This document shows positions 12,924-62,323 of a stretch of 64,000 nt of DNA, piece after piece. Source of the stretch: Acidipropionibacterium jensenii DSM 20535 (GTDB taxonomy: Bacteria > Actinomycetota > Actinomycetes > Propionibacteriales > Propionibacteriaceae); the NCBI RefSeq assembly GCF_000425285.1, contig NZ_AUDD01000015.1, forward strand, positions 1 through 64,000, written 5' to 3'. Each line of letters begins with the position of its first letter. Within the stretch, counting starts at the first letter, position 1. Both the position numbers and the translations under genes were made by a program. The notes under the pieces were generated by a model. The model ran no database searches. It had not been told where the DNA came from and was given only the letters and a program-made list of their open reading frames with translations.

Positions 12924-13856
12924 ATGGCCCCCAAGGCACGCAACACGAACGATCCGAAGTACTCGAAGCTCGCCATCGGCGTCTGTCCCGATCAGTGGGG
13001 AGTCTGGTTCCCGGACGACCCCAAGCAGATCGCCCCGCGCCAGGCCATGCAGGAGATGGCGGAGGCCGGATTCGAGATTCTGGAGACGGGCCCCTACGGG
13101 TACTTCCCGACCGACCCCAAGGAACTCACGAGATGGACCGATGAGTTCGGCCTCAAGGTGGTCGCCGGCACCGGCTGGGGAGTCCTGCACAAGGCCGAGG
13201 CCTGGCCTACCACCGTGGAGACCTTCCGCAAGATCGCCGAGACCCACGCGGCCGTCGGCGCCGAGTACATCGTGCACCTGCCCCCGCTCTACCGCGACGA
13301 CAAGACCTGGGAGTGGACTGACGACCGGGTGCTCTCCGACGACGCCTGGAAGCTGTTCATCGAGAACGCCAACAAGCTCGGCCAGATGCTGCTCGACGAG
13401 TACGGCCTCAAGATGGTGCTGCATCCGCACGGCGACTCCCACATCGAGACCCCCGAGGAGATCGCCCGGATCTTCGACGCCACCGATCCCACCTACGTGA
13501 ACCTGTGCCTGGACACCGGCCACGTCGTCTACGGCGGAGGAGACCCGATCGAGCTCATCAAGCAGTACCCCGAGCGGATCACCTATGTGCACATCAAGGC
13601 CTTCGACCCCGAGATCACCCGCGAGGCCCACGAGAAGGACTGGCCCTTCGGCGAGGCCGTCGCCAAGGGGGCCTCGGTCCGCCCGCCGGCCGGTGAGCCC
13701 GACATGAAGAAGCTGGTCAACGCGCTGTCCGAGCTGGACAAGGACATCTACGTGGTCTGCGAGCAGGACCTGTACCCCTGCGATCCGGGTCTGCCCAAGC
13801 CCAACGCCATCGCCACCCGCGAGTACCTGGCGGAGTGCGGCCTGGGACTCAAGTGA
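12924..13856 (+). CDS. IolE-like sugar isomerase/dehydratase (TIM barrel)
   Basis: 310-aa protein of the xylose-isomerase-like TIM-barrel superfamily, closest in appearance to inosose dehydratase IolE: LAIGVCPDQWGVWFPDD at the start, VLHPHGDSHIETPEEI, LCLDTGHVVYGGGDP, YVHIKAFD and a final EQDLYP Glu. The His, Asp and Glu of these motifs are the usual divalent-metal ligands. ATG 12924 has GAGGAGAAGCGGG upstream. The gene has its own promoter and palindromic operator and is followed by a LacI regulator. It may supply the IolE step missing from the inositol block at 36-46 kb, or act on another sugar acid; the substrate is not provable here. Confidence 0.82.
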   Translation: MAPKARNTNDPKYSKLAIGVCPDQWGVWFPDDPKQIAPRQAMQEMAEAGFEILETGPYGYFPTDPKELTRWTDEFGLKVVAGTGWGVLHKAEAWPTTVETFRKIAETHAAVGAEYIVHLPPLYRDDKTWEWTDDRVLSDDAWKLFIENANKLGQMLLDEYGLKMVLHPHGDSHIETPEEIARIFDATDPTYVNLCLDTGHVVYGGGDPIELIKQYPERITYVHIKAFDPEITREAHEKDWPFGEAVAKGASVRPPAGEPDMKKLVNALSELDKDIYVVCEQDLYPCDPGLPKPNAIATREYLAECGLGLK

Positions 13857-13990
13857 GTCCGACCGTTCACATCTGAGGACTCCAGAGAGGTCCGTCCCGG
13901 CACCTGTAGGAGCAGACTGTCGTGACGGAGCGGGACGGTTGTCGGAGCGTGGACGGTGGGTGAGGCGGGACGCCGAGCGGAGGGGGAGTG

Positions 13991-15004
13991 ATGAACGGAA
14001 GACAACCGACCCAGGTCGAGGTGGCCAGGATGGCCGGGGTGTCCCGCCAGACGGTCTCCCTGGTGTCCCGCAACGACCCGAGGGTCTCGCCCGCCAGCCG
14101 GGCCGCCGTGGAGGCGGCCATGAAGACCCTCGGGTACCGCCCCAATGTCGCCGCGCGGGCGCTGGCGGCCCGGCGGACCGGGTTCATCGGCATCGCGATC
14201 TCCGGGCTGGTCAACCCCTTCAACGGCGAACTGCTCGAGATGATCAGGCGGCACTGCGAGGCCGAGGGACTCCTCCCGTTCATCGTCCCGGTCGACCAGG
14301 ATCCAGCCGACGAGAGGCTGGTCATCGACCGCTTCCTGCAGATGAACGTGGACGCACTGATCCTCGTCTCCCCGCAGTTGGGCGGTGAGGAGCTGGAGCG
14401 GGTCGGCCGACGGGTGCCGACCGTCGTGGTGACCCGCAACGCCGGCCCCGGCAGCGTCGACCTGGTGCACACCGATGACGCCCTGGGGGCCCGCCTGGTG
14501 ACCGAGCGTCTGCTGGAGGAGGGCTATCGCCCGCTCATCTGTCTCGGGGTGGAGGGGCCGGTCTCCGGCGACTCCGCCGGGGACCGGGTGCGCGGCTACC
14601 GTCAGGTCTGCGAGGGGGCCGGTATCGAGCCCCGGGTCGAGATGGTCCGGCTCGACGATCTGGGCCCGGTGATCGCGCGCATCGTCAAGCAGTACGGGCG
14701 CGGCTTCGGTCTGTGCTGCCACAACGACCTGATCGCCCTGGCCGCGGTCGGGCAGCTGGCCGCTCAGCACCTGAGGCCCGGCCGGGACGTCGGCGTCACG
14801 GGTTTCGACAACACGGTGGTCTCCGGCCTTCCCGGGGTGTCGTTGACCACGGTCGACCCGAGCACCTCGACGATGGCCGGCCGGGTCGTCGCGCTGGTGG
14901 TCGAGAGACTCGCCGGACGCACCGATCCGGTCGACGTCGTGCTGCCCCCGCAGCTGGTGGTGAGGACCTCGACCTGCGGGCGAGGAGACGGGACGAACCC
15001 CTGA
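13991..15004 (+). CDS. LacI-family transcriptional regulator
   Basis: DNA-binding repressor with an N-terminal LacI helix-turn-helix (VEVARMAGVSRQTVSLVSRN, about residues 9-28) and hinge (GYRPNVAARALAARR), then a periplasmic-binding-protein-like sensor domain (TGFIGIAISGLVNPFNGELL). 337 aa is normal. ATG 13991 is preferred over GTG 13988 because of spacing to GGAGGGGG. It lies in the same direction behind the IolE-like gene with a 134-bp gap and probably controls the palindrome at 12876. The effector sugar is unknown. Confidence 0.9.
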   Translation: MNGRQPTQVEVARMAGVSRQTVSLVSRNDPRVSPASRAAVEAAMKTLGYRPNVAARALAARRTGFIGIAISGLVNPFNGELLEMIRRHCEAEGLLPFIVPVDQDPADERLVIDRFLQMNVDALILVSPQLGGEELERVGRRVPTVVVTRNAGPGSVDLVHTDDALGARLVTERLLEEGYRPLICLGVEGPVSGDSAGDRVRGYRQVCEGAGIEPRVEMVRLDDLGPVIARIVKQYGRGFGLCCHNDLIALAAVGQLAAQHLRPGRDVGVTGFDNTVVSGLPGVSLTTVDPSTSTMAGRVVALVVERLAGRTDPVDVVLPPQLVVRTSTCGRGDGTNP

Positions 15005-35681: not shown

Positions 35682-36758
35682 TCACGGCTCGGGCATCACG
35701 ATGTCCTTGACCAGGGTCTCGAGGTCGCAGTCGGCCTTGAGGAACCCGCGCAGGGTGCGCACCGTCGGCCCGAAGGTGTCGAACTCCTCGACGGTCATGC
35801 CGTCGGGATCGTAGGCGCGACGGAACTCGGGCATCTTCATCAGGGCGTCGAGGTGGTGCTGGGGAACCGGCTTGCTGATGGCGTCGAAGTCCGGGGTGTA
35901 GCCGGAGTCGTTGACCCGCTTGGCCCAGGCGAAGGGCGGGGACAGCACGAGGTCGCCACCGGTCAGCTCGGAGTACTGCAGGACGTTGCGGTAGGCGGCC
36001 ACCAGGACCCGAGCCTGGAACCCGCGCTCCTGGAAGATCTGGTAGGCGTGCTTGATCGCGGCGATACCGCCCCACTCCAGGGCGCCCGGGTCGATGAACA
36101 GCTGCTCGCGGGAGGCGACGATCTTCAGCCAGTCGTCGAGACGACCGCCCATGATGGTCACCACCGGGCCCATCTCGTCGATCGGCTTGCCGTCGGCGAC
36201 CCGGCGGTCCAGACCGCGCTGGATGGCCTCGGCGGTGCGCACCGCCTGGGGGACCGAGAAGGACACCGTGACATTGATGGAGACGCCGCGGTAGGTGGCG
36301 TCCTCGATGGCCTTGACGCCGACGCTGGTGGCCGGCACCTTGACGATGATGTTGGGAGCCATCTGGCTGAAGGACTCGGCCTGGTCGGCCAGGGCCTTGG
36401 CGTCGTTGTGCAGGCGGGGGTCGGTCTGGATGGACAGCCGGCCGTTGTGTCCGTGCTGCTCCTTGAAGATCGGCTCGAGCAGGGCGGCGGCCTCCACGGA
36501 CATGTCCTTGACGGCCTGCCAGCCGACCTCGGCCTCGCCCCAGGTCGGGTGGGCCTTGGCGATCTCGCGGATCCGCGGCGCCCACACGTCGAGGTGCTTC
36601 TTGATGGTGCCGTAGGCGATCTGCGGGTTGCAGGTGGCGCCGACGCCGCCGAAGGAGATCGACTGGGTGAGCTCCTCGAGGTCCGCGGAGTCGTTCCACA
36701 GGGCGGTCGAGGTGTGCTGCGCCACCTGGAGGAGAGGCCCGGGGGTGTATTCGGTCAT
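35682..36758 (-). CDS. Transaldolase-family protein in the inositol block
   Basis: 358-aa TIM-barrel aldol transferase. The Schiff-base lysine is Lys140 in NIIVKVPATSVG; family motifs ATCNPQIAYGTI and INVTVSFSV are present. It diverges from iolC, and both promoters carry the same operator motif, so it appears to belong to the inositol regulon rather than to the pentose phosphate pathway. Possible roles are recycling of triose phosphate from inositol breakdown or a dedicated aldol step on another sugar; neither can be shown here. The ATG at 36758 has a GGAGCTGATC region upstream and a good sigma-70-type promoter. Confidence 0.88.
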   Translation of the reverse strand: MTEYTPGPLLQVAQHTSTALWNDSADLEELTQSISFGGVGATCNPQIAYGTIKKHLDVWAPRIREIAKAHPTWGEAEVGWQAVKDMSVEAAALLEPIFKEQHGHNGRLSIQTDPRLHNDAKALADQAESFSQMAPNIIVKVPATSVGVKAIEDATYRGVSINVTVSFSVPQAVRTAEAIQRGLDRRVADGKPIDEMGPVVTIMGGRLDDWLKIVASREQLFIDPGALEWGGIAAIKHAYQIFQERGFQARVLVAAYRNVLQYSELTGGDLVLSPPFAWAKRVNDSGYTPDFDAISKPVPQHHLDALMKMPEFRRAYDPDGMTVEEFDTFGPTVRTLRGFLKADCDLETLVKDIVMPEP

Positions 36759-36823: not shown

Positions 36824-36854
36824 ATTACACTGCCTTCCAATTGTCCTGTCAAAT
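36824..36854 (-). promoter_or_regulatory. Transaldolase promoter with operator site 1
   Basis: Minus strand: TTGACA (36852-36847), 17 bp, TGTAAT (36829-36824), a strong sigma-70-type promoter. The operator motif, read on the minus strand as ATTTGACAGGACAAT (36854-36840), overlaps the -35 box. Confidence 0.7.
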
Positions 36855-36932
36855 ACCGGGGCACTTCCCTCGGTCGGTCCGTGCGCGGCCCCCGCGGGCG
36901 GTGCGGTCGCGTCCTCTGTCGGCAGCCCGGGT

Positions 36933-36967
36933 ATTTGTATTGACAATAGGTGCGGTGCTGCTACCGT
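36933..36967 (+). promoter_or_regulatory. iolC promoter with operator site 2
   Basis: TTGACA (36940-36945), 16 bp, TACCGT (36962-36967), 36 nt before the iolC start. The operator motif ATTTGTATTGACAAT (36933-36947) covers the -35 box, as in the divergent promoter. Confidence 0.7.
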
Positions 36968-37003
36968 TGGCCTGCGTAGCCACCCCAGAGAAGTGGAGCT
37001 CAC

Positions 37004-37990
37004 ATGATTGCCCCCGGATCGCGTTCCCTTGACGTCCTGACGATGGGACGGATCGGCGTCGACATCTACCCGTTGCAGCACGGCGTCGGGCTGGAGGAGG
37101 TCACCTCCTTCGGCAAGTTCCTCGGCGGCAGTCCCACCAATGTCGCGGTGGCGACCGCCCGGATGCGGCACGCCTGCGCGGTGATCACCGCGGTCGGCGA
37201 CGACCCCTTCGGCAACTTCTGCCGGCAGGAGATGGCCCGCCTCGGGGTCTTCTCCACCTATGTCAAGACCGTCCGCGAGATCCCCACCCCGGTGACCTTC
37301 TGCGAGATCTTCCCGCCCGACGACTTCCCGCTGTACTTCTACCGGTTCCCCAGCGCGCCCGATCTCAAGATCACCCCGGCTGACATCCCCGAGCAGCAGG
37401 TCCGCGACGCCAGGATCCTCTGGTTGACGGTCACCGGGCTGTGCCAGGAGCCCAGTCGCGCCGCCCACCACCACGCCCTCGACATCCGTGACAGGGCCGA
37501 GCACACCATCCTCGACCTCGACTACCGCGACAGCTTCTGGGACTCCCCGCAGCAGGCCCACGAGGCGGTCGCCGAGATCCTGCCGAAGGTAACCGTGGCG
37601 GTCGGAAACCGCGAGGAGTGCGAGGTCGCCGTCGGCGAGACCGACCCGACCAGGGCCGCCGAGGCCCTGCTGGACGCCGGGGTGCAGCTCGCGGTGGTCA
37701 AGCAGGGGCCCAAGGGGACCCTGGCGATGACCCGCACCGAACGGGTCGTCGTCCCGCCCACCCCGATCGAGGTGACCAACGGGCTGGGAGCCGGGGATGC
37801 CTTCGGCGGCAGCCTGTGCCACGGACTGCTGGAGGGCTGGTCGCTGGCCGACACGATCCGCGCCGCCTCCAGCGCCGGGGCCCTGGTCGCCACCCGGCTG
37901 GAGTGCTCCACCGCGATGCCGACCGAACCCGAACTGTTCTCGATGATGGCCCGCCACCCCGACATCACGGCCACCCAGGAGTCACGATGA
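37004..37990 (+). CDS. iolC: 5-dehydro-2-deoxygluconokinase
   Basis: PfkB-family sugar kinase that phosphorylates 2-deoxy-5-keto-gluconate in myo-inositol breakdown. The start LDVLTMGRIGVDIYPLQ, the sugar-binding GGSPTNVAVATARM, and the C-terminal anion-hole motif GLGAGDAFGG with catalytic Asp265 are intact. 328 aa is normal for IolC. ATG 37004 is preceded by GTGGAG. First gene of iolC-aldolase-iolB-iolD, with an ATGA overlap to the next gene. Confidence 0.94.
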   Translation: MIAPGSRSLDVLTMGRIGVDIYPLQHGVGLEEVTSFGKFLGGSPTNVAVATARMRHACAVITAVGDDPFGNFCRQEMARLGVFSTYVKTVREIPTPVTFCEIFPPDDFPLYFYRFPSAPDLKITPADIPEQQVRDARILWLTVTGLCQEPSRAAHHHALDIRDRAEHTILDLDYRDSFWDSPQQAHEAVAEILPKVTVAVGNREECEVAVGETDPTRAAEALLDAGVQLAVVKQGPKGTLAMTRTERVVVPPTPIEVTNGLGAGDAFGGSLCHGLLEGWSLADTIRAASSAGALVATRLECSTAMPTEPELFSMMARHPDITATQESR

Positions 37991-38868
37991 GCACCACACC
38001 GCTGATCGACAGCCTCGTCGAGCGCCGCGTGAAGGACCCCCGCGGGTTCCAGGCCAGGGTCATCGACCGCGAGCGGCCCCGCTGGCACGGCGGGGAGCCG
38101 CTGATGGTGATCGCCGCCGACCACCCGGCCCGCGGAGCACTGCGGGTCGGTGCCGACGAGTACGCGATGGCCGACCGGGAGTCCCTGCTGGAACGGTGCG
38201 TCACCGCCCTGTCGCGACCCGGGGTCAACGGATTCCTGGGCACCAGCGACATGGTTCAGGACCTGGCCAACCTCGGTGCCCTGGAGGGCAAGGTGGTCTT
38301 CGGCTCGATGAACCGCGGCGGACTGCGCGGGGCCAGCTTCGAGATCGACGACCGGATGACCGGCTACGACGTCGACGGGGTCATCGGCCAGGACCTGGCC
38401 GGCGGCAAGATGCTGATGCGCTACGACTTCGAGGACTCCTCGACCTCCGACACCGTGGCGGCCTGCGCGAGCAGCATCGACGCGCTGGCCAGGGCCGGTC
38501 GGATCGCGATGGTCGAGCCCTTCATCTCGCGCCGGGACGCCACCGGGAAGGTGGTCAACGACCTGTCGACCCAGGCGGTCGTGAAGTCGGTCGCGATGAC
38601 CGCCGGACTGGCCGCCGACTCGACATGGACCTGGCTGAAACTGCCAGCCGTCGAGGGGATGGAGGAGGTCGCCCGAGCCTCCTCGATGCCGATCCTGCTG
38701 CTGGGCGGGGAACTGTCCGACGATGTCGAGGCGACCCGCCGGATGTGGGCCAGGGCACTGGCCCCCTCCACCGTCCAGGGTCTGGTCCTGGGCCGATCAA
38801 TGCTCTACCCGGCGGACGGCGACGTCGCCTCCGCCGTGGACAACGCCGTCACACTATTGGAGGTCTGA
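37987..38868 (+). CDS. IolJ-like class I aldolase (Cgl0159-type)
   Basis: 293-aa (beta/alpha)8 protein of the DeoC/LacD superfamily of the kind encoded in actinobacterial inositol clusters. Visible motifs are MVIAADHPARGALRVG, GSMNRGGLRGASFEIDD and a candidate Schiff-base lysine in WTWLKLPAVEGM. By position it should cleave 2-deoxy-5-keto-gluconate-6-phosphate to dihydroxyacetone phosphate and malonate semialdehyde, the step done by IolJ in Bacillus. ATG 37987 overlaps the iolC stop by 4 nt. The assignment of the reaction is by context. Confidence 0.85.
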   Translation: MSTTPLIDSLVERRVKDPRGFQARVIDRERPRWHGGEPLMVIAADHPARGALRVGADEYAMADRESLLERCVTALSRPGVNGFLGTSDMVQDLANLGALEGKVVFGSMNRGGLRGASFEIDDRMTGYDVDGVIGQDLAGGKMLMRYDFEDSSTSDTVAACASSIDALARAGRIAMVEPFISRRDATGKVVNDLSTQAVVKSVAMTAGLAADSTWTWLKLPAVEGMEEVARASSMPILLLGGELSDDVEATRRMWARALAPSTVQGLVLGRSMLYPADGDVASAVDNAVTLLEV

Positions 38869-38873
38869 CACAG

Positions 38874-39770
38874 ATGAGTGACTACGTTCTGCCGGCAGGT
38901 ACCGCCGGCCACGACGAGTTCGAGGTCGACGTCTCCCCGCAGCGGGCCGGCTGGACCTACTCGGGGCTGAGAGTCGCGACCCTGGCGGCCGGCTCCTCGA
39001 CCACCGTGGAGACCGGGGAGTACGAGTACCTGGTGCTGCCGCTGGAGGGGTCCTGGAGAGTCGAGGTCGACGGCAGGACCACCGAGCTCGCCGGCCGACG
39101 CACCATCTGGGGCCAGGTCACCGACTACTTCTTCCTGCCGCGCGGGACCACCGCGGTGGTCACCGCCGTCAGCGGCGGCCGGGTCGGGCTGCCCTATGCG
39201 CTGGCCTCCGAGGACCTGGAACCCCGCTACTGCCCGGTCGACGAGGTCACCGTGGAGCTGCGGGGAGCCGACTACCTGTGCCGGCAGGCCTCCAGCTACT
39301 CGGTCGGCAATGCCCTGCACACCTCGCGACTGCTGGTCGTGGAGGTCATCACCCCCGGTGGCTGCTGGTCCTCCTACCCGCCCCACAAGCACGACGAGGA
39401 GGGGCCCGACGAGCACGAGCTGGAGGAGATCTACTACTTCCAGATCAAGGGCAACGAGTACGGCCCCGGGATGGCGCTGCACGCCACCTACGGGACCGCG
39501 GACCGCCCGATCAGCGTCGCCGCCAAGATCGGCACCGGCGACGTCGCCCTGGTGCCGCACGGCTGGCACGGCCCCTGCGCGGCCGCTCCCGGGTACGACC
39601 TGTACTACCTCAATGTGATGGCGGGCCCCGGCGGAGCCGAGTGGAAGTCGGTGGACGACCCCGAGTACACGTGGCTGCGCGGCACCTACGAGACCGGGAC
39701 GATGGACCCGCGCCTTCCCTACCAGGTCGACGAGAACGTCGACGACATCCAGGCTGACCCCAAGAACTGA
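38874..39770 (+). CDS. iolB: 5-deoxy-glucuronate isomerase
   Basis: Cupin-type isomerase converting 5-deoxy-glucuronate to 2-deoxy-5-keto-gluconate. The second cupin carries the metal site YPPHKHDEE and ELEEIYYFQ, with a later His in VPHGWHGP. 298 aa is slightly longer than the usual 270. ATG 38874 follows GGAGGTCTGACAC, 5 nt after the aldolase stop. Middle of the iol operon. Confidence 0.95.
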   Translation: MSDYVLPAGTAGHDEFEVDVSPQRAGWTYSGLRVATLAAGSSTTVETGEYEYLVLPLEGSWRVEVDGRTTELAGRRTIWGQVTDYFFLPRGTTAVVTAVSGGRVGLPYALASEDLEPRYCPVDEVTVELRGADYLCRQASSYSVGNALHTSRLLVVEVITPGGCWSSYPPHKHDEEGPDEHELEEIYYFQIKGNEYGPGMALHATYGTADRPISVAAKIGTGDVALVPHGWHGPCAAAPGYDLYYLNVMAGPGGAEWKSVDDPEYTWLRGTYETGTMDPRLPYQVDENVDDIQADPKN

Positions 39771-39792
39771 CCCCAAGAAGGAGTCCAGAGAG

Positions 39793-41697
39793 ATGGCTGA
39801 ACCCACCATCCGGCTGAGCGTCGGACAGGCGATCGTCCGGTACCTCACCCACCAGTACAGCGAGCGGGACGGCGTCGAACGCCGCTTCGTGCCCGGCATC
39901 TTCGGCATCTTCGGCCACGGCAACGTGGCCGGACTCGGCCAGGCCCTGCTGCAGAACGAGGTGAGCCCCGACCCGGAGGAGGGCCGCCTGGAGTACTGGC
40001 ACGGTCGCAACGAGCAGGGCATCGTCCACGCGGCGACCGCCTATGCCCGCACCATGGACCGGCTGCAGACCCTGGCCGCCACCGCCTCGATCGGCCCGGG
40101 CTCCCTCAACATGGTCACCGGGGCCGCGCTGGCCACCACCAATCGGATCCCGGTGCTGCTCTTCCCCTCCGACATCTTCGCCAACCGGGCGCCCAACCCG
40201 GTGCTGCAGCAGCTGGAGGACTCCAGGGACCCCGACATCAGCTGCAACGACGCCTTCAAGCCGGTCTCGAAGTTCTGGGACCGGGTCAACCGGCCCGAAC
40301 AGCTGATGGTGAGCCTGCCCGGGGCGATGCGGGTGCTCACCGACCCGGTCGAGACCGGTGCGGCCGTGGTCTGCCTGCCCGAGGACGTCCAGGCCGAGGT
40401 CTACGACTGGCCGCTGTCCTTCTTCGCCAAGAAGGTGTGGCACATGGACCGCCAGGTCCCCGCTCCCTCCGCCCTGGCCCGGGCGGTCAGCGCCATCAAG
40501 GGCGCCGCCAAGCCGCTCATCGTCTCCGGCGGTGGCACCATCTACTCCCAGGCCTCCGAGCAGCTTCGGGAGCTGGCCACCGCCACCGGCATCCCGGTCG
40601 CCGACACCCAGGCCGGCAAGGGAGCCATCAACTGGGACCACCCGGCCGCCGTCGGCGGTCTGGGGGCCACCGGCGCCGGATCGGCGAACGCGCTGGCGGC
40701 CGAGGCCGATCTGGTGATCGGCATCGGCACCCGGTACTCCGACTTCACCACCGGCTCCCAGACGGTCTTCGGAAACCCGCAGGTGCGCTTCGTCAACATC
40801 AACGTCGCCGCCTTCGACGCCGTCAAGCAGGGTGCCGAGATGGTCCTCGCCGATGCCCGGGAGGCACTCAGCGCGCTGACCGCCGCACTCGCCGACTTCC
40901 ACGTGAGCCAGCAGTGGACGGACAAGACCCGCACTGAGGTGGCTGCCTGGCAGAAGGCCACCGACGCCTGCTACCACGCGGATCACGGTCCGCTGCCGGC
41001 CCAGACCGAGGTCTTCGGCGCCCTCAACGAGATGATGGGCGACGAGGACATCATGATCAACGCCGCCGGCTCGATGCCCGGCGACCTGCAGTGCCTGTGG
41101 CGGGCCAGAACCCCGGTCCAGTACCACGTCGAGTACGCCTTCTCCTGCATGGGATACGAGATCCCGGCCGCCCTGGGCGTCAAGATGGCCCGGCCCGAGT
41201 CCGAGGTGGTGGCGATCGTCGGCGACGGCACCTACCAGATGCTGCCGATGGAGCTGGCGACCCTGGTCCAGGAGGGTCGCAAGGCGATCTTCGTGCTGCT
41301 GCAGAACTACGGCTACTCCTCGATCGGAGCGCTGTCGGAGTCCCACGGGTCCCAGCGGTTCGGCACCAAGTACCGTCGCGACGACGACGGCGAGGGCCAT
41401 GTCCGCGGCGACGACCCGTCGCTGCGGCTGCCGGTCGACATCGCGGCCAATGCCCGCTCCTGGGGGCTGGACGTCCTCGAGGTGCACGGCATCGAGGAGT
41501 TCCGTCAGGCCTACCAGAAGGCCCACGCCTCCGACCGGGCGACGATGATCCACATCGAGACCGACCTGTACGGCCCCAACCCGCCCTCCACCGGCTGGTG
41601 GGACGTCCCGGTCACCTCGCAGTCCCGGCTGGAGTCGACCCAGGAGGCCTACCGGCAGTACGCCGGCGAGATCACCCGGCAGAGGCGGTTCTTCTGA
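39793..41697 (+). CDS. iolD: 3D-(3,5/4)-trihydroxycyclohexane-1,2-dione hydrolase
   Basis: Thiamine-diphosphate enzyme that opens the inositol-derived ring, giving 5-deoxy-glucuronate. 634 aa with the three acetolactate-synthase-like domains: the N-terminal pyrimidine-binding part (FGIFGHGNVAGLGQAL, HGRNEQGIVHAATAYA), a central Rossmann-like part, and a C-terminal cofactor motif starting VGDGTYQMLPMELATL. ATG 39793 has an AGGAG-type site. Its substrate is made by IolE, which this block lacks. A very strong terminator follows. Confidence 0.95.
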   Translation: MAEPTIRLSVGQAIVRYLTHQYSERDGVERRFVPGIFGIFGHGNVAGLGQALLQNEVSPDPEEGRLEYWHGRNEQGIVHAATAYARTMDRLQTLAATASIGPGSLNMVTGAALATTNRIPVLLFPSDIFANRAPNPVLQQLEDSRDPDISCNDAFKPVSKFWDRVNRPEQLMVSLPGAMRVLTDPVETGAAVVCLPEDVQAEVYDWPLSFFAKKVWHMDRQVPAPSALARAVSAIKGAAKPLIVSGGGTIYSQASEQLRELATATGIPVADTQAGKGAINWDHPAAVGGLGATGAGSANALAAEADLVIGIGTRYSDFTTGSQTVFGNPQVRFVNINVAAFDAVKQGAEMVLADAREALSALTAALADFHVSQQWTDKTRTEVAAWQKATDACYHADHGPLPAQTEVFGALNEMMGDEDIMINAAGSMPGDLQCLWRARTPVQYHVEYAFSCMGYEIPAALGVKMARPESEVVAIVGDGTYQMLPMELATLVQEGRKAIFVLLQNYGYSSIGALSESHGSQRFGTKYRRDDDGEGHVRGDDPSLRLPVDIAANARSWGLDVLEVHGIEEFRQAYQKAHASDRATMIHIETDLYGPNPPSTGWWDVPVTSQSRLESTQEAYRQYAGEITRQRRFF

Positions 41698-41734
41698 GCC
41701 TTGTTCGACCAGGCCTGGTCGACCAGGCGTGTGG

Positions 41735-41779
41735 ACCGGCGGGACCCCCGGGCAGAGACTGCCCGGGGGTCCCGCCGGT
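41735..41779 (+). terminator. Strong terminator after iolD
   Basis: A 19-bp perfect GC-rich stem (41735-41753 and 41761-41779; start ACCGGCGGGACCCCCGGGC) with a 7-nt loop, 37 nt after the iolD stop. It closes the iolC operon. Confidence 0.85.
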
Positions 41780-41825
41780 CTGGTCCCCAGGACCTTCGGG
41801 GAGATGGCAGCGGCCGGGGACATGG

Positions 41826-41854
41826 AAGGGGCCCGTCCCCAGGACGGGCCCCTT
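41826..41854. terminator. Second terminator hairpin
   Basis: AAGGGGCCCGTCC and GGACGGGCCCCTT form a 13-bp stem with a CCA loop; A and T flanks would serve either strand. It lies between iolD and the minus-strand membrane gene. Confidence 0.75.
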
Positions 41855-41926
41855 CGTGCTGACGGATTCGTCTCGACTCGATGTGAGTCGCAGGCTGTGT
41901 GAGACTCTCCGTTGCGTCTCTGCCAG

Positions 41927-41948
41927 GGTCGCACCTCAGGGTGCGACC
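41927..41948 (-). terminator. Hairpin downstream of small membrane gene
   Basis: GGTCGCACC and GGTGCGACC pair with a 4-nt loop, 17 nt beyond the stop of the minus-strand gene at 41965. Confidence 0.55.
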
Positions 41949-41964
41949 GGTTCCGCTGTGATGG

Positions 41965-42225
41965 TCAGTTCTGGGCCAGCACCGCCTTGCGCAGGGTCGA
42001 GGCGACCAGCGCGAAGGAGGAGGCCACTGCCAGGAACCCGCCGAGGATGACGGCCACATCGGAGGAGATCACCAGACCGGTGAGGGCGACGATCACCGAG
42101 ACGGCCACGAGAACGACCGCGACGATGGGCAGCTGGAACCTGTCAGTGTCGGCGTGACGGGAGACGGAGTGCCGAGAGGCAGCTCCCCTGGACGCGAGGG
42201 ACTTGTTCAGAGAAATGGTGGTCAT
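41965..42225 (-). CDS. Small two-span membrane protein of unknown function
   Basis: 86 aa: a polar, Ser/Arg-rich N-terminus (TTISLNKSLASRGAASRHSV) followed by two hydrophobic segments (LPIVAVVLVAVSVIVALTGL and VAVILGGFLAVASSFALVAS) and a short basic end. No family recognised. The ATG at 42225 is preferred; an in-frame ATG at 42243 would add six residues. It has its own terminators and divides the iol block into two halves, but no inositol role is evident. Confidence 0.65.
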   Translation of the reverse strand: MTTISLNKSLASRGAASRHSVSRHADTDRFQLPIVAVVLVAVSVIVALTGLVISSDVAVILGGFLAVASSFALVASTLRKAVLAQN

Positions 42226-42403
42226 GTGCGTGCCTGCTTCCATGATCGGAGTGCCGGGCACGGCTGAAAGCCGTGCTCAGCACGGCTTCGTGCGCTCCCC
42301 GGGATTCCGGGAAGGGTCAGGTTCATGACCTGACAAGGAAGACGATACGGGATGACACCGTGCCGGGCAAGTACCCGGGGCACGTCTATGCCCACGGCGA
42401 AGA

Positions 42404-42419
42404 ATTTGTTCTGACAAAT
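42404..42419. promoter_or_regulatory. Operator site 3 upstream of the LacI gene
   Basis: ATTTGTTCTGACAAAT is a perfect palindrome of 6-bp arms around four bases and matches the ATTTG-N4-GACAA motif of the two operators at 36.8-36.95 kb. It lies 45 bp before the proposed GTG start of the regulator, suggesting autoregulation. Confidence 0.65.
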
Positions 42420-42464
42420 AACTCGCAGCTTCTGACGTTGCCGCTGGCGGTAGCATCACCCGAC

Positions 42465-43643
42465 GTGGATGGCGCACAGGGGCGAACACCGCACAGGGTC
42501 ACGATTCGCGACGTCGCGAGACTGGCCGGCACCTCGACGTCCACCGTCTCGGTGGCTCTGTCGGGCGGCGGGAAGGTCTCCGAGGCGACCCGCAGGCGGG
42601 TCATCGACGCCGCCGACCGGCTCGGCTGGCGGCCAGACCGCAGAGCCTCGGGACTGCGGCGATTCCACTCCCGGTCGGTGGGGGTGGTCTACGAGGTCGA
42701 GCAGTCCTTCCAGGCGCATCTGCTCGACGCCCTCTACGTGGGGCTGTCCGGCGAGCACCTCGAGGTGATCCTGGCCGGGGCCACCGCCCATCACACCGAG
42801 CAGATGTGCATCGAGGACCTCACGCGCGAGGGTTGCGAGGCGATGGTGCTCACCGGTTCTGGACTCAGCGACCAGGAGATCGCCGCGGTGGCGAGGCGCC
42901 TGCCGGTGCTGAGTCTGTGTCGACAGGTGGCACTGGGGGGTGTCGATGTCGTCGCCTGCGACTCGCGCTCGGGGGTCGCCGGGGCGGTGGATGCCCTGGT
43001 CTCCCTGGGGCACCGCCGGATCGTCCATGTCGGCGGATCGGGTCAGCCGATGGCCGATGCCAGGGAGCAGGGGTACGTGGAGGCGATGACCCGCCACGGG
43101 CTGGCGGGGGAGATCCGCGTGCTGCCCGGCGGGTCGACCATCGAGGCCGGGGTGCTGGCCGGGCACGCGCTGTGGGCGATGGCCCCCGCGCCGACCGCGG
43201 TCACCTGTTTCAACGACATGTGCGCGGCGGGCCTGGTCCGGCAGTTGCGGATGATCGGGGTGCGGGTCCCCGACGACATCAGCGTGGTCGGCTTCGACGA
43301 CGCGCCGGTGGCCAGCGATCCCACCACGGCCCTCACCACGGTCCGTCAGGACGTCACCCTGCTGGCGCGGCTGGCGGCGAGGGTGCTGCGTACCCGGGTG
43401 GAGGCCGGCGGTCCGGTGCGGCCCGGGGCCGAGCGGGCGGTGACGGTGCCCGCGGTGCTGGTGACCCGTTCGACGACCGGGTCCCCCGCGGTCGTAACGA
43501 TTCGACTCGGCCGGCAATCCGTTCACCCAGTCGCCAGTCTCCCGATCGAATCGTTTTTTCATGTCAGTACGTTTATCACTTTTCGGATGACATGGGGCAT
43601 CATCGTTGTGCCGGTGCACTGGGGCACCGTCCGCGGCCAATGA
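42465..43643 (+). CDS. LacI-family regulator of the inositol block
   Basis: N-terminal LacI helix-turn-helix (TIRDVARLAGTSTSTVSVAL), hinge (LGWRPDRRASGLRR) and a sugar-sensor domain (VVYEVEQSFQAHLLDALYVG, GVRVPDDISVVGFDDAP). GTG 42465 is chosen because a TAGCAT box at 42451-42456 lies 8 nt upstream; the open frame continues upstream through the operator. The normal family end is reached near residue 342, after which about 50 hydrophobic or unrelated residues follow before the stop, an unusual tail. By position it controls the small gene, iolT and iolG, and by shared operator also the iolC and transaldolase promoters. Confidence 0.87.
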   Translation: MDGAQGRTPHRVTIRDVARLAGTSTSTVSVALSGGGKVSEATRRRVIDAADRLGWRPDRRASGLRRFHSRSVGVVYEVEQSFQAHLLDALYVGLSGEHLEVILAGATAHHTEQMCIEDLTREGCEAMVLTGSGLSDQEIAAVARRLPVLSLCRQVALGGVDVVACDSRSGVAGAVDALVSLGHRRIVHVGGSGQPMADAREQGYVEAMTRHGLAGEIRVLPGGSTIEAGVLAGHALWAMAPAPTAVTCFNDMCAAGLVRQLRMIGVRVPDDISVVGFDDAPVASDPTTALTTVRQDVTLLARLAARVLRTRVEAGGPVRPGAERAVTVPAVLVTRSTTGSPAVVTIRLGRQSVHPVASLPIESFFHVSTFITFRMTWGIIVVPVHWGTVRGQ

Positions 43644-43869: not shown

Positions 43870-45534
43870 ATGACCATGGACACGACACGTCCCGCCCCCG
43901 GGACCGATGAGCCCGACATCGCAGAAATGGTGGCCGGGACTCCGGCCTCCGGCAAGCATCGCGGCATCCTGGCGGTGGCCGGGGTGGCCACCCTGGGTTC
44001 TCTGCTCTTCGGCTATGACACCGGTGTCATCTCCGGTGCACTGCCCTACATGTACATGCCGCACGGTGCCGGCGGCCTTGCGTTGAACCCGGTCGAGGAG
44101 GGCCTGATCGGCGGCGTTCTGCTGATCGGTGCGGCCTTCGGCGCGGTGCTCGGCGGGACCATGTCGGACCGCTGGGGACGACGTCACAACATCACGATCC
44201 TCGCCGTGCTGTTCCTGTTCGGAGCCATCGGCACCACCTTCGCGCCCAGCGTGGCCGTGATGAGCCCGTTCCGGTTCATCCTCGGCTTCGCCGTCGGCGG
44301 CGCCTCCGCCACCGTGCCGGTGTACCTGGCCGAGACGGCCCCCAAACGCATTCGAGGGTCGATCGTGGCGATCGACCAGCTGATGATCGTCACCGGCCAG
44401 CTGCTGGCCTTCACGATGAACGCCGTCATCAACGCGGCGCACGGCGGACCGCAGATCACGGTGACCGCCAACCACAACGCCGACCAGCACGGCATCGGCC
44501 TCGGCCAGCGGTCCTGGGACTCGGTCCTCGCCCTGCAGGCCAGCAAGGGCGGCCCGATGGACGACGCGCAGTTCCACGCCTTCGTCAACAACCTGGTGGT
44601 CAGCGCGGGCAACGGCGCCGCCTGGCGGTGGATGCTGGTGCTCTGCACGATCCCGGCCATCGCGCTGTGGATCGGCATCCGGCTGATGCCGGAGTCGGCC
44701 CGGTGGTATCTCGTCAAGGGTCGCATCCGCGAGGCGATCGGCTCCCTCAAGCGGGTCCGCAATCCTGAGAAGGACGGGTCCCTGGAGGACGAGGTCACCG
44801 AGATGCTGGAGACTCGTCACCATGAGCGCGAGGAGGCCGGGGCCAGAGGCACCTTCAAGCACGTGTGGCAGACGCCATGGCTCCGCAAGCTGCTGTTCAT
44901 GGGCATCTTCCTGGCGATCGTCAACCAGACCACCGGTGTCAACACGATCATGTACTACGCCCCGAAGGTGCTGGAGTACGCCGGCATGACGACCTCCGCC
45001 TCGATCACCGCCCAGGTGGCCAATGGCGTGATGTCGGTGATCGGCTCGGCCCTGGGCCTGTGGCTGATCCTGCGGTTCCGCCGTCGTCAGATCCTCATCT
45101 TCGACGTCTTCGGTGTCGCCGCGGCGCTGCTGGCGATCGCCGGCGTGTTCCACTTCATGATCGCCCCGCACATCGCTGACGGCACCCGGCCGCCGGCCTG
45201 GACGGCCTACCTGGTGCTGGCCATGATGGCGCTCTTCATGCTCATCGTGCAGTCCACCAATGGCACCGTGGTGTGGACGATGCTGGGGGAGATGTTCCCC
45301 TCCAACGTCCGAGGCGTGATGAACGGCACGGCGATCTTCTTCATGTGGGTCGTCAACGCGATCATCACCTTCACCTTCCCCTCGATGATGGCCAGCCTCG
45401 GTGGTGGACTCACCTACACCATCTATGGCGTCCTCAATGTCGTCATCGGCATCGTCCTGCTCAAGATCATGCCGGAGACCTCCGGGAAGTCTCTGGAACA
45501 GATCGAGGGATACATGGAGAAGCGCTACTCCTGA
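43870..45534 (+). CDS. iolT: MFS sugar/myo-inositol:H+ symporter
   Basis: 554-aa sugar-porter-family importer with 12 membrane segments. Signature motifs are LFGYDTGVISGALPY (helix 1), DRWGRRHN, PVYLAETAPKRIRGS, PESARWYLVKGR after helix 6, NQTTGVNTIMYY, and the closing PETSGKSLEQIE. A roughly 50-residue insertion between the fifth and sixth helices (TANHNADQHGIGLGQRSWDS) is longer than in glucose porters but occurs in inositol transporters. ATG 43870 has GAGGTTGGAG upstream. A terminator follows; iolG comes next. Confidence 0.9.
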   Translation: MTMDTTRPAPGTDEPDIAEMVAGTPASGKHRGILAVAGVATLGSLLFGYDTGVISGALPYMYMPHGAGGLALNPVEEGLIGGVLLIGAAFGAVLGGTMSDRWGRRHNITILAVLFLFGAIGTTFAPSVAVMSPFRFILGFAVGGASATVPVYLAETAPKRIRGSIVAIDQLMIVTGQLLAFTMNAVINAAHGGPQITVTANHNADQHGIGLGQRSWDSVLALQASKGGPMDDAQFHAFVNNLVVSAGNGAAWRWMLVLCTIPAIALWIGIRLMPESARWYLVKGRIREAIGSLKRVRNPEKDGSLEDEVTEMLETRHHEREEAGARGTFKHVWQTPWLRKLLFMGIFLAIVNQTTGVNTIMYYAPKVLEYAGMTTSASITAQVANGVMSVIGSALGLWLILRFRRRQILIFDVFGVAAALLAIAGVFHFMIAPHIADGTRPPAWTAYLVLAMMALFMLIVQSTNGTVVWTMLGEMFPSNVRGVMNGTAIFFMWVVNAIITFTFPSMMASLGGGLTYTIYGVLNVVIGIVLLKIMPETSGKSLEQIEGYMEKRYS

Positions 45535-45551: not shown

Positions 45552-45590
45552 TGAGGGCGGGCTCTCCCTTCAAGGGAGGGCCCGCCCTCA
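45552..45590 (+). terminator. Terminator after iolT
   Basis: TGAGGGCGGG pairs with CCCGCCCTCA, extended inward by CTCTCCCTT/AAGGGAGGG, then ATTGTGTT. Strong intrinsic-type terminator 18 nt after the stop. Confidence 0.8.
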
Positions 45591-45722
45591 ATTGTGTTAA
45601 CATTTCCGTGGTGACGGTGCCGACACAGTGAGTCCTGCTCGCAGGGCACCACCACAATCCCGCCGGTGGCGCGGCCACTGACCAGCATCAGTGCAGATGT
45701 CCTATGAGAGGTGTTCTCAATC

Positions 45723-46736
45723 ATGATTCGAATCGCAATCATCGGTGCCGGCCGCATTGGCCACGTCCACGCCCGCGCGGTGGCCAACCACCCGCAGGCC
45801 GAGCTGGTGCTGGTCTGTGATCCCTTCGAGAAGAATGCGAAGGAGCTGTCGGCGCAGTACGGCGTCAAGTACTGCCTGGACCCCCAGGAGGTGTTCTCCT
45901 CCCCGGACGTCGACGCGGTGATCATCGGATCCCCGACGCGGTTCCACGTGGACCACATCCTGGCCGCCGTGAAGGCCGGCAAGAAGGTCATGAGCGAGAA
46001 GCCGATCGCTCTCGACCTGGCCTCGGCCAAGCGCTGCGTCGACGAGCTGGGAGACGCCGCCGACCACGTGATGATGGGCTTCAACAGGCGCTTCGACCCG
46101 AGCTTCGCCGAGATCCACCACCGGGTCGCCGATGGCGAGGTCGGGGACCTCCAGCAGCTCATCGTCGTCTCCCGCGACCCTGCCGCCCCGCCGGCCGAGT
46201 ACGTGGCCGGGTCCGGCGGCATCTTCAAGGACATGACGATCCACGACTTCGACACCGTGCGGTTCTTCCTCGGCGACATCGCCGAGGTGACCGCGGTGGG
46301 TACCAATGTCGACGAGGCGATCAAGGCCCAGGGCGACTTCGACCAGGTCCTGGTCACGCTGAAGTCGGTCGACGGCAAGCTGGCCACCATCGTCAACTCC
46401 CGCAGCTGCGCATTCGGCTACGACCAGCGTCTGGAGGCCTTCGGAGCCGACGGCATGCTGAGCGCCGACAACCTCACCGAGACGGCGGTGCGCAAGGCCT
46501 CGGGGAACCAGACCGAGGCGAAGTCCGCGGTGATGGACTTCTTCCTGGACCGCTACGAGGACGCCTACCGGATCGAGCTGGGACACTTCATCGAGGCGGC
46601 CGCCTCCGGTGAGGCCGTCTCGCCGTCGGTGCGCGACGGGTACGCCGCCCTCCAGCTGGCCGAGGCGGCCGGCCTGTCGGCCAAGGAGGGACGGACCGTC
46701 GCCATCGAGGCGAACAAGGTGCCGGCGGCCGTCTGA
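45723..46736 (+). CDS. iolG: Inositol 2-dehydrogenase
   Basis: NAD-dependent oxidation of myo-inositol to scyllo-inosose, the entry step of the pathway. Gfo/Idh/MocA fold: Rossmann motif IGAGRIGHVHAR (residues 7-18), SEKPIALD with catalytic Lys93, FNRRFDPSF, and KDMTIHDFD with Asp170 and His174. 337 aa is typical. ATG 45723 follows GAGAGGTG. Separated from iolT by a terminator and 188 bp, so it probably has its own promoter. Confidence 0.94.
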   Translation: MIRIAIIGAGRIGHVHARAVANHPQAELVLVCDPFEKNAKELSAQYGVKYCLDPQEVFSSPDVDAVIIGSPTRFHVDHILAAVKAGKKVMSEKPIALDLASAKRCVDELGDAADHVMMGFNRRFDPSFAEIHHRVADGEVGDLQQLIVVSRDPAAPPAEYVAGSGGIFKDMTIHDFDTVRFFLGDIAEVTAVGTNVDEAIKAQGDFDQVLVTLKSVDGKLATIVNSRSCAFGYDQRLEAFGADGMLSADNLTETAVRKASGNQTEAKSAVMDFFLDRYEDAYRIELGHFIEAAASGEAVSPSVRDGYAALQLAEAAGLSAKEGRTVAIEANKVPAAV

Positions 46737-61056: not shown

Positions 61057-61215
61057 CTGCTGCGTGCTCCTTCGGGTTGAACACCGCCGCCGATCGGCAG
61101 CCGGCCGAGGTTGGCGCCAGTGTAGAGGGTGCCGCTGCCGTCCGGTGCGGCAAACCCGGCCTGGAGGTGCGGTGGACCGTGCCCGCGGGGAGGGTCATGT
61201 CACTGTGGCAGGGAA

Positions 61216-61227
61216 ATGACCTGTCAT
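61216..61227. promoter_or_regulatory. Palindrome before the oxidoreductase gene
   Basis: ATGAC-CT-GTCAT, a 12-bp inverted repeat overlapping a CATATA box, 64 bp before the ATG at 61292. A possible operator; nothing else is seen in 61057-61291. Confidence 0.4.
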
Positions 61228-61291
61228 ATAGCGTGGGTGGGCACGTGGGCGGTGTGCCCACCGGTCTGCACGAGTTCAAAGGAGACTCCGC

Positions 61292-62323
61292 ATGCGTATC
61301 GGACTTGTTGGATACGGGGTGGGCGGCCACCTGTTCCACCTTCCCTACATCCAGGCTGCCAAGGAGTGGGAGATCGTCGGCGTGGTGACGCGCAATCCCG
61401 CGCGGCGCGAGGTGCTGGCCGGCGAGGCGCCGGGGGTGCCCGCCTTCGACTCGATGGACGATCTGATCGACGCCGGGGTCGACGCCGTCACCATCACCAC
61501 TCCTCCCCAGACCCGCCGCGAACTGGTCCTCCATGCTCTGGAGCGCGGCGTCAACGTGGTCGCCGACAAGCCCTTCGCCCCGAACCTGGCCGGCGCGAAG
61601 GAGCTCGCCGAGGCGGCGGCCGCCGCCGGCAAGGTGCTGTGCGTCTTCCAGAACAGGCGGTACGACACCGATCTGATCACCCTTCAGGGTGTCCTGGCCT
61701 CCGGGGACCTCGGGGCACCGTGGCGCTCCCGGATCGTCTTCGACCTCGACGAGCCCGGCGGACTGGAGGTCGGCCCCGAGCACGGCCTGCTGCGCGATCT
61801 CGGCGCCCATGTCGTCGACCAGGCGATCCGGCTGTTCGGTCCGGTGGCACGGGTCGACGGACATCTGGACTGGGTGGACACCCCCGACGGGCGCGTCGAC
61901 GTCGGCTTCTCGCTGGGCCTTCACCACGCGTCCGGGGTGTTCAGCGACGTGTCGGCCTCCAAACTGTGCCGCCGGACCGCCAAGGAGTTCACCGTCTACG
62001 GCGCCAAGGGCTACTACGAGTCCCACATGAGCGACCGCCAGACCGACCAGCTCACGTCGGGCCTGCGTCCGGCAACCGCCCCGAAGGGGGTCTGGGGGGT
62101 GGAGGAGCCCGATCGCTGGGGGACCCTGGTCACCGCCGACGGCGCCCATCAGGTGCCCTCGGCGGCCGGCGAGTACGCCGACTTCTACCGGCAGTTCCAC
62201 GCGGCGGTGGCCGACGGGGCGCAGCCCCCGGTGCTGCTGCCGGAGGTGCTGCACACCATCGCCGTGCTGGACGCCGCCAGGCTCAGCGACGCGCAGGGCA
62301 GGTCCGTGGTCCCCGAGGCATGA
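61292..62323 (+). CDS. Gfo/Idh/MocA-family oxidoreductase
   Basis: 343-aa NAD(P)-dependent sugar-type dehydrogenase. Rossmann start RIGLVGYGVGGHLFHLPYIQ, ADKPFAPNLAGAKELAEAA with the catalytic-type Lys, QNRRYDTDLITLQ, and LLRDLGAHVVDQAIRLFG with the Asp/His pair. ATG 61292 has AAAGGAG upstream. It resembles YdgJ/YvaA-type scyllo-inositol dehydrogenases more than IolG, so a role in scyllo-inositol use is possible but it is 15 kb from the iol block. Confidence 0.9.
   Translation: MRIGLVGYGVGGHLFHLPYIQAAKEWEIVGVVTRNPARREVLAGEAPGVPAFDSMDDLIDAGVDAVTITTPPQTRRELVLHALERGVNVVADKPFAPNLAGAKELAEAAAAAGKVLCVFQNRRYDTDLITLQGVLASGDLGAPWRSRIVFDLDEPGGLEVGPEHGLLRDLGAHVVDQAIRLFGPVARVDGHLDWVDTPDGRVDVGFSLGLHHASGVFSDVSASKLCRRTAKEFTVYGAKGYYESHMSDRQTDQLTSGLRPATAPKGVWGVEEPDRWGTLVTADGAHQVPSAAGEYADFYRQFHAAVADGAQPPVLLPEVLHTIAVLDAARLSDAQGRSVVPEA

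Follow-up and report, generated by a model that had tools for sequence, protein, structure and literature searches.

In Corynebacterium glutamicum, the genes for inositol transport and breakdown are repressed by a GntR-type regulator, IolR (PMC9603128; PMC8634428). Inositol regulators also occur in the LacI family: PMC4052901 describes seven inositol-linked LacI orthologous groups with even-length palindromic operators, and gives a central CG in the operators of 1173 of the 1303 LacI regulators studied. IpsA, a LacI-type, inositol-sensing activator of ino1, acts on genes for inositol synthesis and the cell wall and has a central CG in its ino1 sites (PMC3899939). Here we analysed a stretch of 64,000 nucleotides from Acidipropionibacterium jensenii DSM 20535 (contig NZ_AUDD01000015.1, positions 1 to 64,000; the window below), which carries a cluster of inositol (iol) genes together with a LacI-family gene. 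A sequence-only reading of this stretch had pointed to a motif shared by three sites, two of them at the opposite promoters of the transaldolase gene (tal) and iolC and the third before the LacI gene, and had proposed that the LacI protein controls tal, iolC-D and itself. We found that the motif very probably serves as operator for an inositol repressor of the GntR/HutC type (an actinobacterial IolR), which is encoded on another contig of the same genome (C18).

The three sites were present where the sequence-only reading had placed them (operators 1 to 3, Table 1). A motif was learned independently from 29 intergenic regions outside the genus in which a GntR gene faces iolC or a Cgl0159-like gene, for which we coined the name iolJ; a locus at a contig end (L093) was left out. 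Palindromic expectation-maximisation (width 16, one site per region, symmetry imposed, the best of 80 starts of 12 rounds kept) returned aTTTGTCcgGACAAAt, a motif of 19.8 bits with two weak central letters, whose 29 sites scored between 13.6 and 26.0 bits. This motif, blind to the genus Acidipropionibacterium, was scored on the window and on the stretches fetched from other genomes, and its three highest-ranking matches in the window were operator 3 (23.6 bits), operator 2 (22.2 bits) and operator 1 (21.0 bits). Across 60 Markov-simulated windows, matches of at least 16 bits averaged 0.017 per window, and the highest score was 16.3 bits. The fourth-ranking match, operator 4 (17.0 bits), was absent from the sequence-only reading and adjoins a hairpin formed by an inverted repeat at 45552-45590; a similar element before iolG was also found in two genus mates, G063 (16.1 bits) and G027 (14.5 bits).

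The pattern of the sequence-only reading, ATTTGNNNNGACAAW, occurred in 6, 16 and 25 of the 29 learning regions with zero, up to one and up to two mismatches respectively, as against means of 0.0, 0.15 and 1.67 (maxima 0, 1 and 5) in 100 dinucleotide shuffles of these regions. A search of the whole genome (3,028,354 bases in 56 contigs, the window being C15:1-64000) gave exact matches at the three sites only, a count with some circularity, these sites having supplied the pattern. Among matches with a single mismatch, one immediately preceded an iolA-type gene (C1:105211) and another covered the start of a zinc alcohol dehydrogenase gene (adh) adjoining iolE (C18:45846). Others lay before a tautomerase gene (C1:27405) and at C36:8513, and operator 3 read in reverse was a further one. 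Allowing two mismatches, 101 matches were counted genome-wide against 36 for the reversed control. Within the window seven matches were found at this level, the only one at which the window was shuffled; the shuffle mean was 3.11, and the excess is weak because 6 of 100 shuffles reached at least seven. The core of the pattern, TTTGTNNNGACAAA, was present on both strands with up to one mismatch 6, 10, 12 and 11 times in the present genome (G000) and in the genus mates G003, G027 and G063, and its reversed control 0, 3, 1 and 1 times.

The overlap of operators 1 and 2 with opposite -35 boxes, as noted in the sequence-only reading, was borne out by eye: TTGACA overlaps operator 1 in the tal promoter (TTGACA-17-TGTAAT, 36852-36824 on the minus strand) and operator 2 in the iolC promoter (TTGACA-16-TACCGT, 36940-36967). 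The boxes were assigned by eye and by conservation since consensus promoter scans called no promoter in either region. Operator 3 overlaps no convincing -35 box; it is located upstream of TAGCAT (42451-42456), the first five bases of which are invariant in an alignment of five upstream regions of LacI genes from the genus. Across four aligned genus genomes, TTTGTATTGACAA is invariant at operator 2, as are the 15 bases AATTGTCCTGTCAAA at operator 1, of which the 16th base varies. As TTGACA stands within both operators, the motif could be envisaged as chiefly a -35 box with chance flanks. However, TTGACA occupies opposite halves of the motif at the two sites, the first at operator 1 and the second at operator 2, and conservation across the 29 regions spans both arms, TTTGT and ACAAA, and is evident in the listed sites without imposed symmetry. 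The coincidence was thus rejected and is extremely unlikely. A fixed spacing of operators 1 and 2, considered as a sign of looping, was rejected as well, since their start-to-start distances (94, 95, 96 and 129 bp) vary.

To compare the two candidate regulators, 117 family genomes, evenly drawn from a larger group, were searched for iolC, GntR, LacI and iolE. Each of the 41 genomes whose iolC match was near full-length (at least 52% identity) had a GntR homologue (at least 36% identity), as did two genomes with a partial iolC that were excluded from this count (G006 and G077). Among 40 regions fetched, the GntR gene was divergent to iolC in 25 and to iolJ in 4, all 29 outside the genus. LacI orthologues (at least 61% identity), on the other hand, were confined to 4 of the 117 genomes, all from the genus; a LacI match of any kind at an E-value of 1e-40 or better was found in 19, with identities of 52% and 51% for the two that ranked next, both far from iolC.

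That the LacI protein is the inositol repressor, binding all three sites and controlling tal, iolC-D and itself, was a plausible guess from its neighbours: the gene lies inside the iol cluster in all four genus genomes that have the cluster, operator 3 stands close before it, and inositol-linked LacI groups are known, as mentioned above. The motif, however, is widespread in the family and accompanies GntR in genomes without this LacI, the 25 matching regions above all belonging to genomes that lack a LacI of at least 61% identity. Operator 3 is not conserved close before the LacI gene in the genus, as no comparable site was found there in G003 (which has two such genes), G027 or G063; G003 has a 14.1-bit match about 290 bp before one of its LacI genes, and in G063 the LacI gene is divergent to iolA, in a region with an 11-bit-type element like that of the iolA region in the present genome. 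Furthermore, the central dinucleotides of operators 1 to 3 are CT, TT and CT on the plus strand, so that, unlike the sites of the LacI-family IolR groups (PMC4052901) and the ino1 sites of IpsA (PMC3899939), they have no central CG; by eye, a central CG was seen in only 2 of the 29 learned sites. The present LacI protein shares its family with both of these systems, and in IpsA the effector is likewise inositol. The perfect palindrome claimed for operator 3 also did not hold, since only its 6-bp arms are perfect and the central TCTG breaks the symmetry (six of eight base steps pair). On the distribution of the motif, the unconserved operator 3 and the missing central CG, we discarded the reading of the motif by LacI, which now appears very unlikely. 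The proposal of a single regulator for tal and iolC-J-B-D probably stands, the site cores being invariant in four genus genomes; its extension to LacI, as that regulator and as its own, is not supported. Because operator 3 is not conserved in the genus and the central CG is missing, LacI is best viewed as probably a target of GntR in this species, and not as the master regulator or the reader of operator 3. For annotation, the regulator gene closest to a site need not be the one that reads it.

A compromise would let GntR read the motif everywhere and LacI share some of the sites in the genus, as a second signal input. The genus does keep LacI with major facilitator superfamily (MFS) transporter and dehydrogenase genes beside the iol genes, and at the thresholds of our script no CG-centred, LacI-type palindrome that could serve LacI instead was found before the LacI, MFS or iolG genes of the present genome. 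CG-centred palindromes do precede genes of relatives (the dehydrogenase of G003, and the MFS gene and iolG of G063), with no sequence in common. Shared reading is not required by the sequence, however, and LacI could use sites outside this search; we regard it as quite unlikely.

The assignment to GntR was examined further at promoters away from the GntR gene, because the 29 learning regions had been picked for a GntR gene facing an iol gene. Among iolC promoters that do not face GntR and stood outside the learning set, 9 of 10 scored at least 19.9 bits: five of five at loci L102-L106 (24.3-26.8 bits; the learning set included the GntR-iolJ region of four of these genomes) and four of five in a second set (19.9-24.3 bits). 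Named genomes were also scanned with a six-member GntR alignment. The best 80 of 129 loci comprised 51 from Actinobacteria and 29 that were more distant; six of the former, on contigs equal in length to learning-set contigs, and one from the genus were left out, leaving 44. A site of at least 16 bits was present within 400 bp before the GntR gene at 32 of these 44 loci and at 30 of the 37 that have iol genes nearby, compared with 1 of the 29 distant loci without iol genes. One such locus, in Corynebacterium pacaense, has a 20.6-bit site and a GntR gene oriented divergently from iolC; this GntR is 47% identical to that of the present genome.

A number of results nevertheless weigh against the GntR assignment. 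In the present genome the GntR gene is unlinked to the tal-iolC pair and has no match of at least 13 bits directly before it. The iolA region reached only 11.5 bits, and an 18.6-bit match (L040 2905-2920, G000:C1:27404-27419) falls just before the tautomerase gene, for which we know of no tie to inositol. The core pattern with two mismatches occurred 52 times in the genome against 40 for the reversed control, so close to the control that such loose matches must be mostly chance. The genus mate G047, which has no iolC, GntR or LacI orthologue, has no core match with up to one mismatch, but it cannot separate the two regulators because LacI is absent there too. Among the iolC promoters held out, that of G108 has no site, and at L100 and L101, where iolC follows iolE in the same direction, no site of at least 13 bits lies directly before iolC; instead, L100 carries sites between iolG and GntR, and L101 carries them before iolE. 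Seven of the 37 named iol loci fell below 16 bits, 15 of the 51 named loci and 1 of the 29 distant ones also scored at least 16 bits in another 400-bp window (most of these may be other iol promoters), and LacI-like genes (25-41% identity) lay within 10 of the 51. Upstream of six GntR homologues that are unlinked to iolC there was no match of at least 16 bits (best scores: G018 3.9, G041 10.0, G059 13.9, G097 4.9, G087 -5.4, G108 14.0). Likewise, of nine GntR loci from genomes with no listed iolC (L200-L208), only one had a match of at least 13 bits: L203, with iolJ-like and adh-like pieces, gave 14.3 and 16.5 bits, L208, with iolB-like and iolA-like genes, 11.0, L200 10.8, and the remainder at most 2.6. 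Since such siteless loci exist, some GntR homologues may not read the motif; such homologues could be paralogues that serve other functions, or could lack autoregulation.

The C18 protein carries the GntR helix-turn-helix (PF00392) and UTRA (PF07702) domains of an actinobacterial IolR. Its gene lies downstream of iolE on the same strand, with adh divergent, and is thus linked to the iol genes through iolE and not, as in the 29 regions of relatives, through iolC or iolJ. The sites at the iol promoters are palindromes of the TGTCnnGACA type, which would agree with the C. glutamicum IolR motif, reportedly given as KGWCHTRACA by Klaffl et al. in 2013; a literature search that left subscription journals mostly uncovered returned no text containing it. 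This motif was exact in 15 of the 29 family regions, compared with a mean of 0.5 and a maximum of 3 in 100 shuffles, and it matched the tal-iolC region of the present genome with one mismatch. The regulator proposed here belongs to the same family as C. glutamicum IolR, in apparent contrast to the regulon of which it would act from beside iolE, away from iolC, with tal facing iolC and with sites at tal and, in this species, at the LacI gene.

From the sites, genes, conservation and co-occurrence observed here, we infer binding, repression and an inducer as follows. A GntR dimer would bind the 16-bp palindrome aTTTGTCnnGACAAAt; a block of RNA polymerase at tal and iolC is proposed because the sites cover the -35 boxes of both genes. 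The repressor would be released when inositol or one of its breakdown products binds the UTRA domain, and the GntR gene in its present position would have little or no autoregulation. The regulon here probably comprises tal, iolC-J-B-D, iolG, iolE and adh and, in this species, the LacI gene, with iolA perhaps an additional member; the learned motif scored 20.4 bits before iolE and 16.9 bits before adh. A regulator, an operator and a regulon can in this way be proposed for inositol use in Acidipropionibacterium and the relatives examined. The GntR-type IolR regulon is already known, and Acidipropionibacterium would be an additional case; among the literature matches listed for inositol regulators, Streptomyces and Propionibacterium, with most subscription journals uncovered, there was no paper on such a regulon in Acidipropionibacterium.

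The arrangement of tal and iolC can be traced in relatives whose iolC is 77-78% identical (L087-L089). There the order is tal (minus strand), site, GntR (minus), site, iolC (plus), and the site between tal and GntR, ATTTGTCCTGTCAAAT in L087 and L088 and GTTTGTCCTGTCAAAT in L089, differs by one or two bases from operator 1 (AATTGTCCTGTCAAAT). Within the genus, tal and iolC are head to head, both site cores are invariant in the four genomes that bear the cluster, and GntR is convergent behind tal in G063, far off in G003 and G027, and on another contig here. The simplest reading is that the GntR gene left an ancestral tal-GntR/iolC divergon, by loss or relocation, and that both operators stayed face to face, giving the present gene order. 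The locus would then be a clear example of operators that remain after a regulator gene relocates and, overall, an ordinary inositol control circuit with rearranged genes. Beyond this, the same repressor may have captured the genus-specific LacI in this species, forming a cascade from GntR through LacI to the transporter and dehydrogenase, possibly with competition between the two at operator 3, a scheme that we consider rather unlikely as a whole.

Table 1. Operators and genes of the inositol system in the window, with the GntR gene on contig C18.
Feature	Position	Strand	Remarks
Operator 1	36840-36854	minus	ATTTGACAGGACAAT; plus-strand 16-mer AATTGTCCTGTCAAAT = 36839-36854; over tal -35 box
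Operator 2	36933-36948	plus	15-mer of the sequence-only reading, ATTTGTATTGACAAT = 36933-36947; over iolC -35 box
Operator 3	42404-42419	plus	ATTTGTTCTGACAAAT; 46-61 bp 5' of LacI GTG start
Operator 4	45590-45605	plus	AATTGTGTTAACATTT; directly 3' of hairpin, before iolG
Transaldolase (tal)	35682-36758	minus	PF00923 above cut-off; below NCBIfam cut-offs
iolC, 5-dehydro-2-deoxygluconokinase	37004-37990	plus	TIGR04382 above cut-off
iolJ, Cgl0159-like gene	37987-38868	plus	PF22649 above cut-off; no NCBIfam match; start by eye
iolB	38874-39770	plus	TIGR04378 above cut-off; start by eye
iolD	39793-41697	plus	TIGR04377 above cut-off
LacI-family regulator	42465-43643	plus	PF00356, PF13377
Sugar-porter MFS transporter	43870-45534	plus	TIGR00879 above cut-off
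iolG, inositol 2-dehydrogenase	45711-46736	plus	TIGR04380 above cut-off
GntR regulator	G000:C18:43585-44361 (L039 1583-2362)	minus	PF00392 and PF07702 (UTRA) above cut-off

Outside the window, iolE on contig C18 (TIGR04379) and the iolA-type gene on contig C1 (TIGR01722) both scored above cut-off. The MFS transporter is a candidate inositol transporter from the position of its gene. The start of the LacI gene was set by genus alignment, in which its GTG is aligned with the ATG of the relatives' genes. Its frame extends about 50 residues (43490-43643) past the stretch that aligns with the relatives in G003 and G027, and the G063 homologue has a stop codon within the aligned stretch. In the genome G020, iolC is directly preceded by a different LacI gene (34% identity; L102 1987-2958) that has motif matches on either side.

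Two other loci in the window were noted. At 12924-15004 a TIM-barrel gene that resembles iolE but falls below its cut-off is followed by another LacI gene; no motif match of at least 13 bits was found at this locus, which is perhaps a second sugar cluster. The fifth-ranking match of the learned motif in the window (61214-61229, 14.7 bits, the sixth-ranking score being down to 10.3) precedes by 63 bp the gene for a Gfo/Idh/MocA dehydrogenase (61292-62323), a possible further inositol target.

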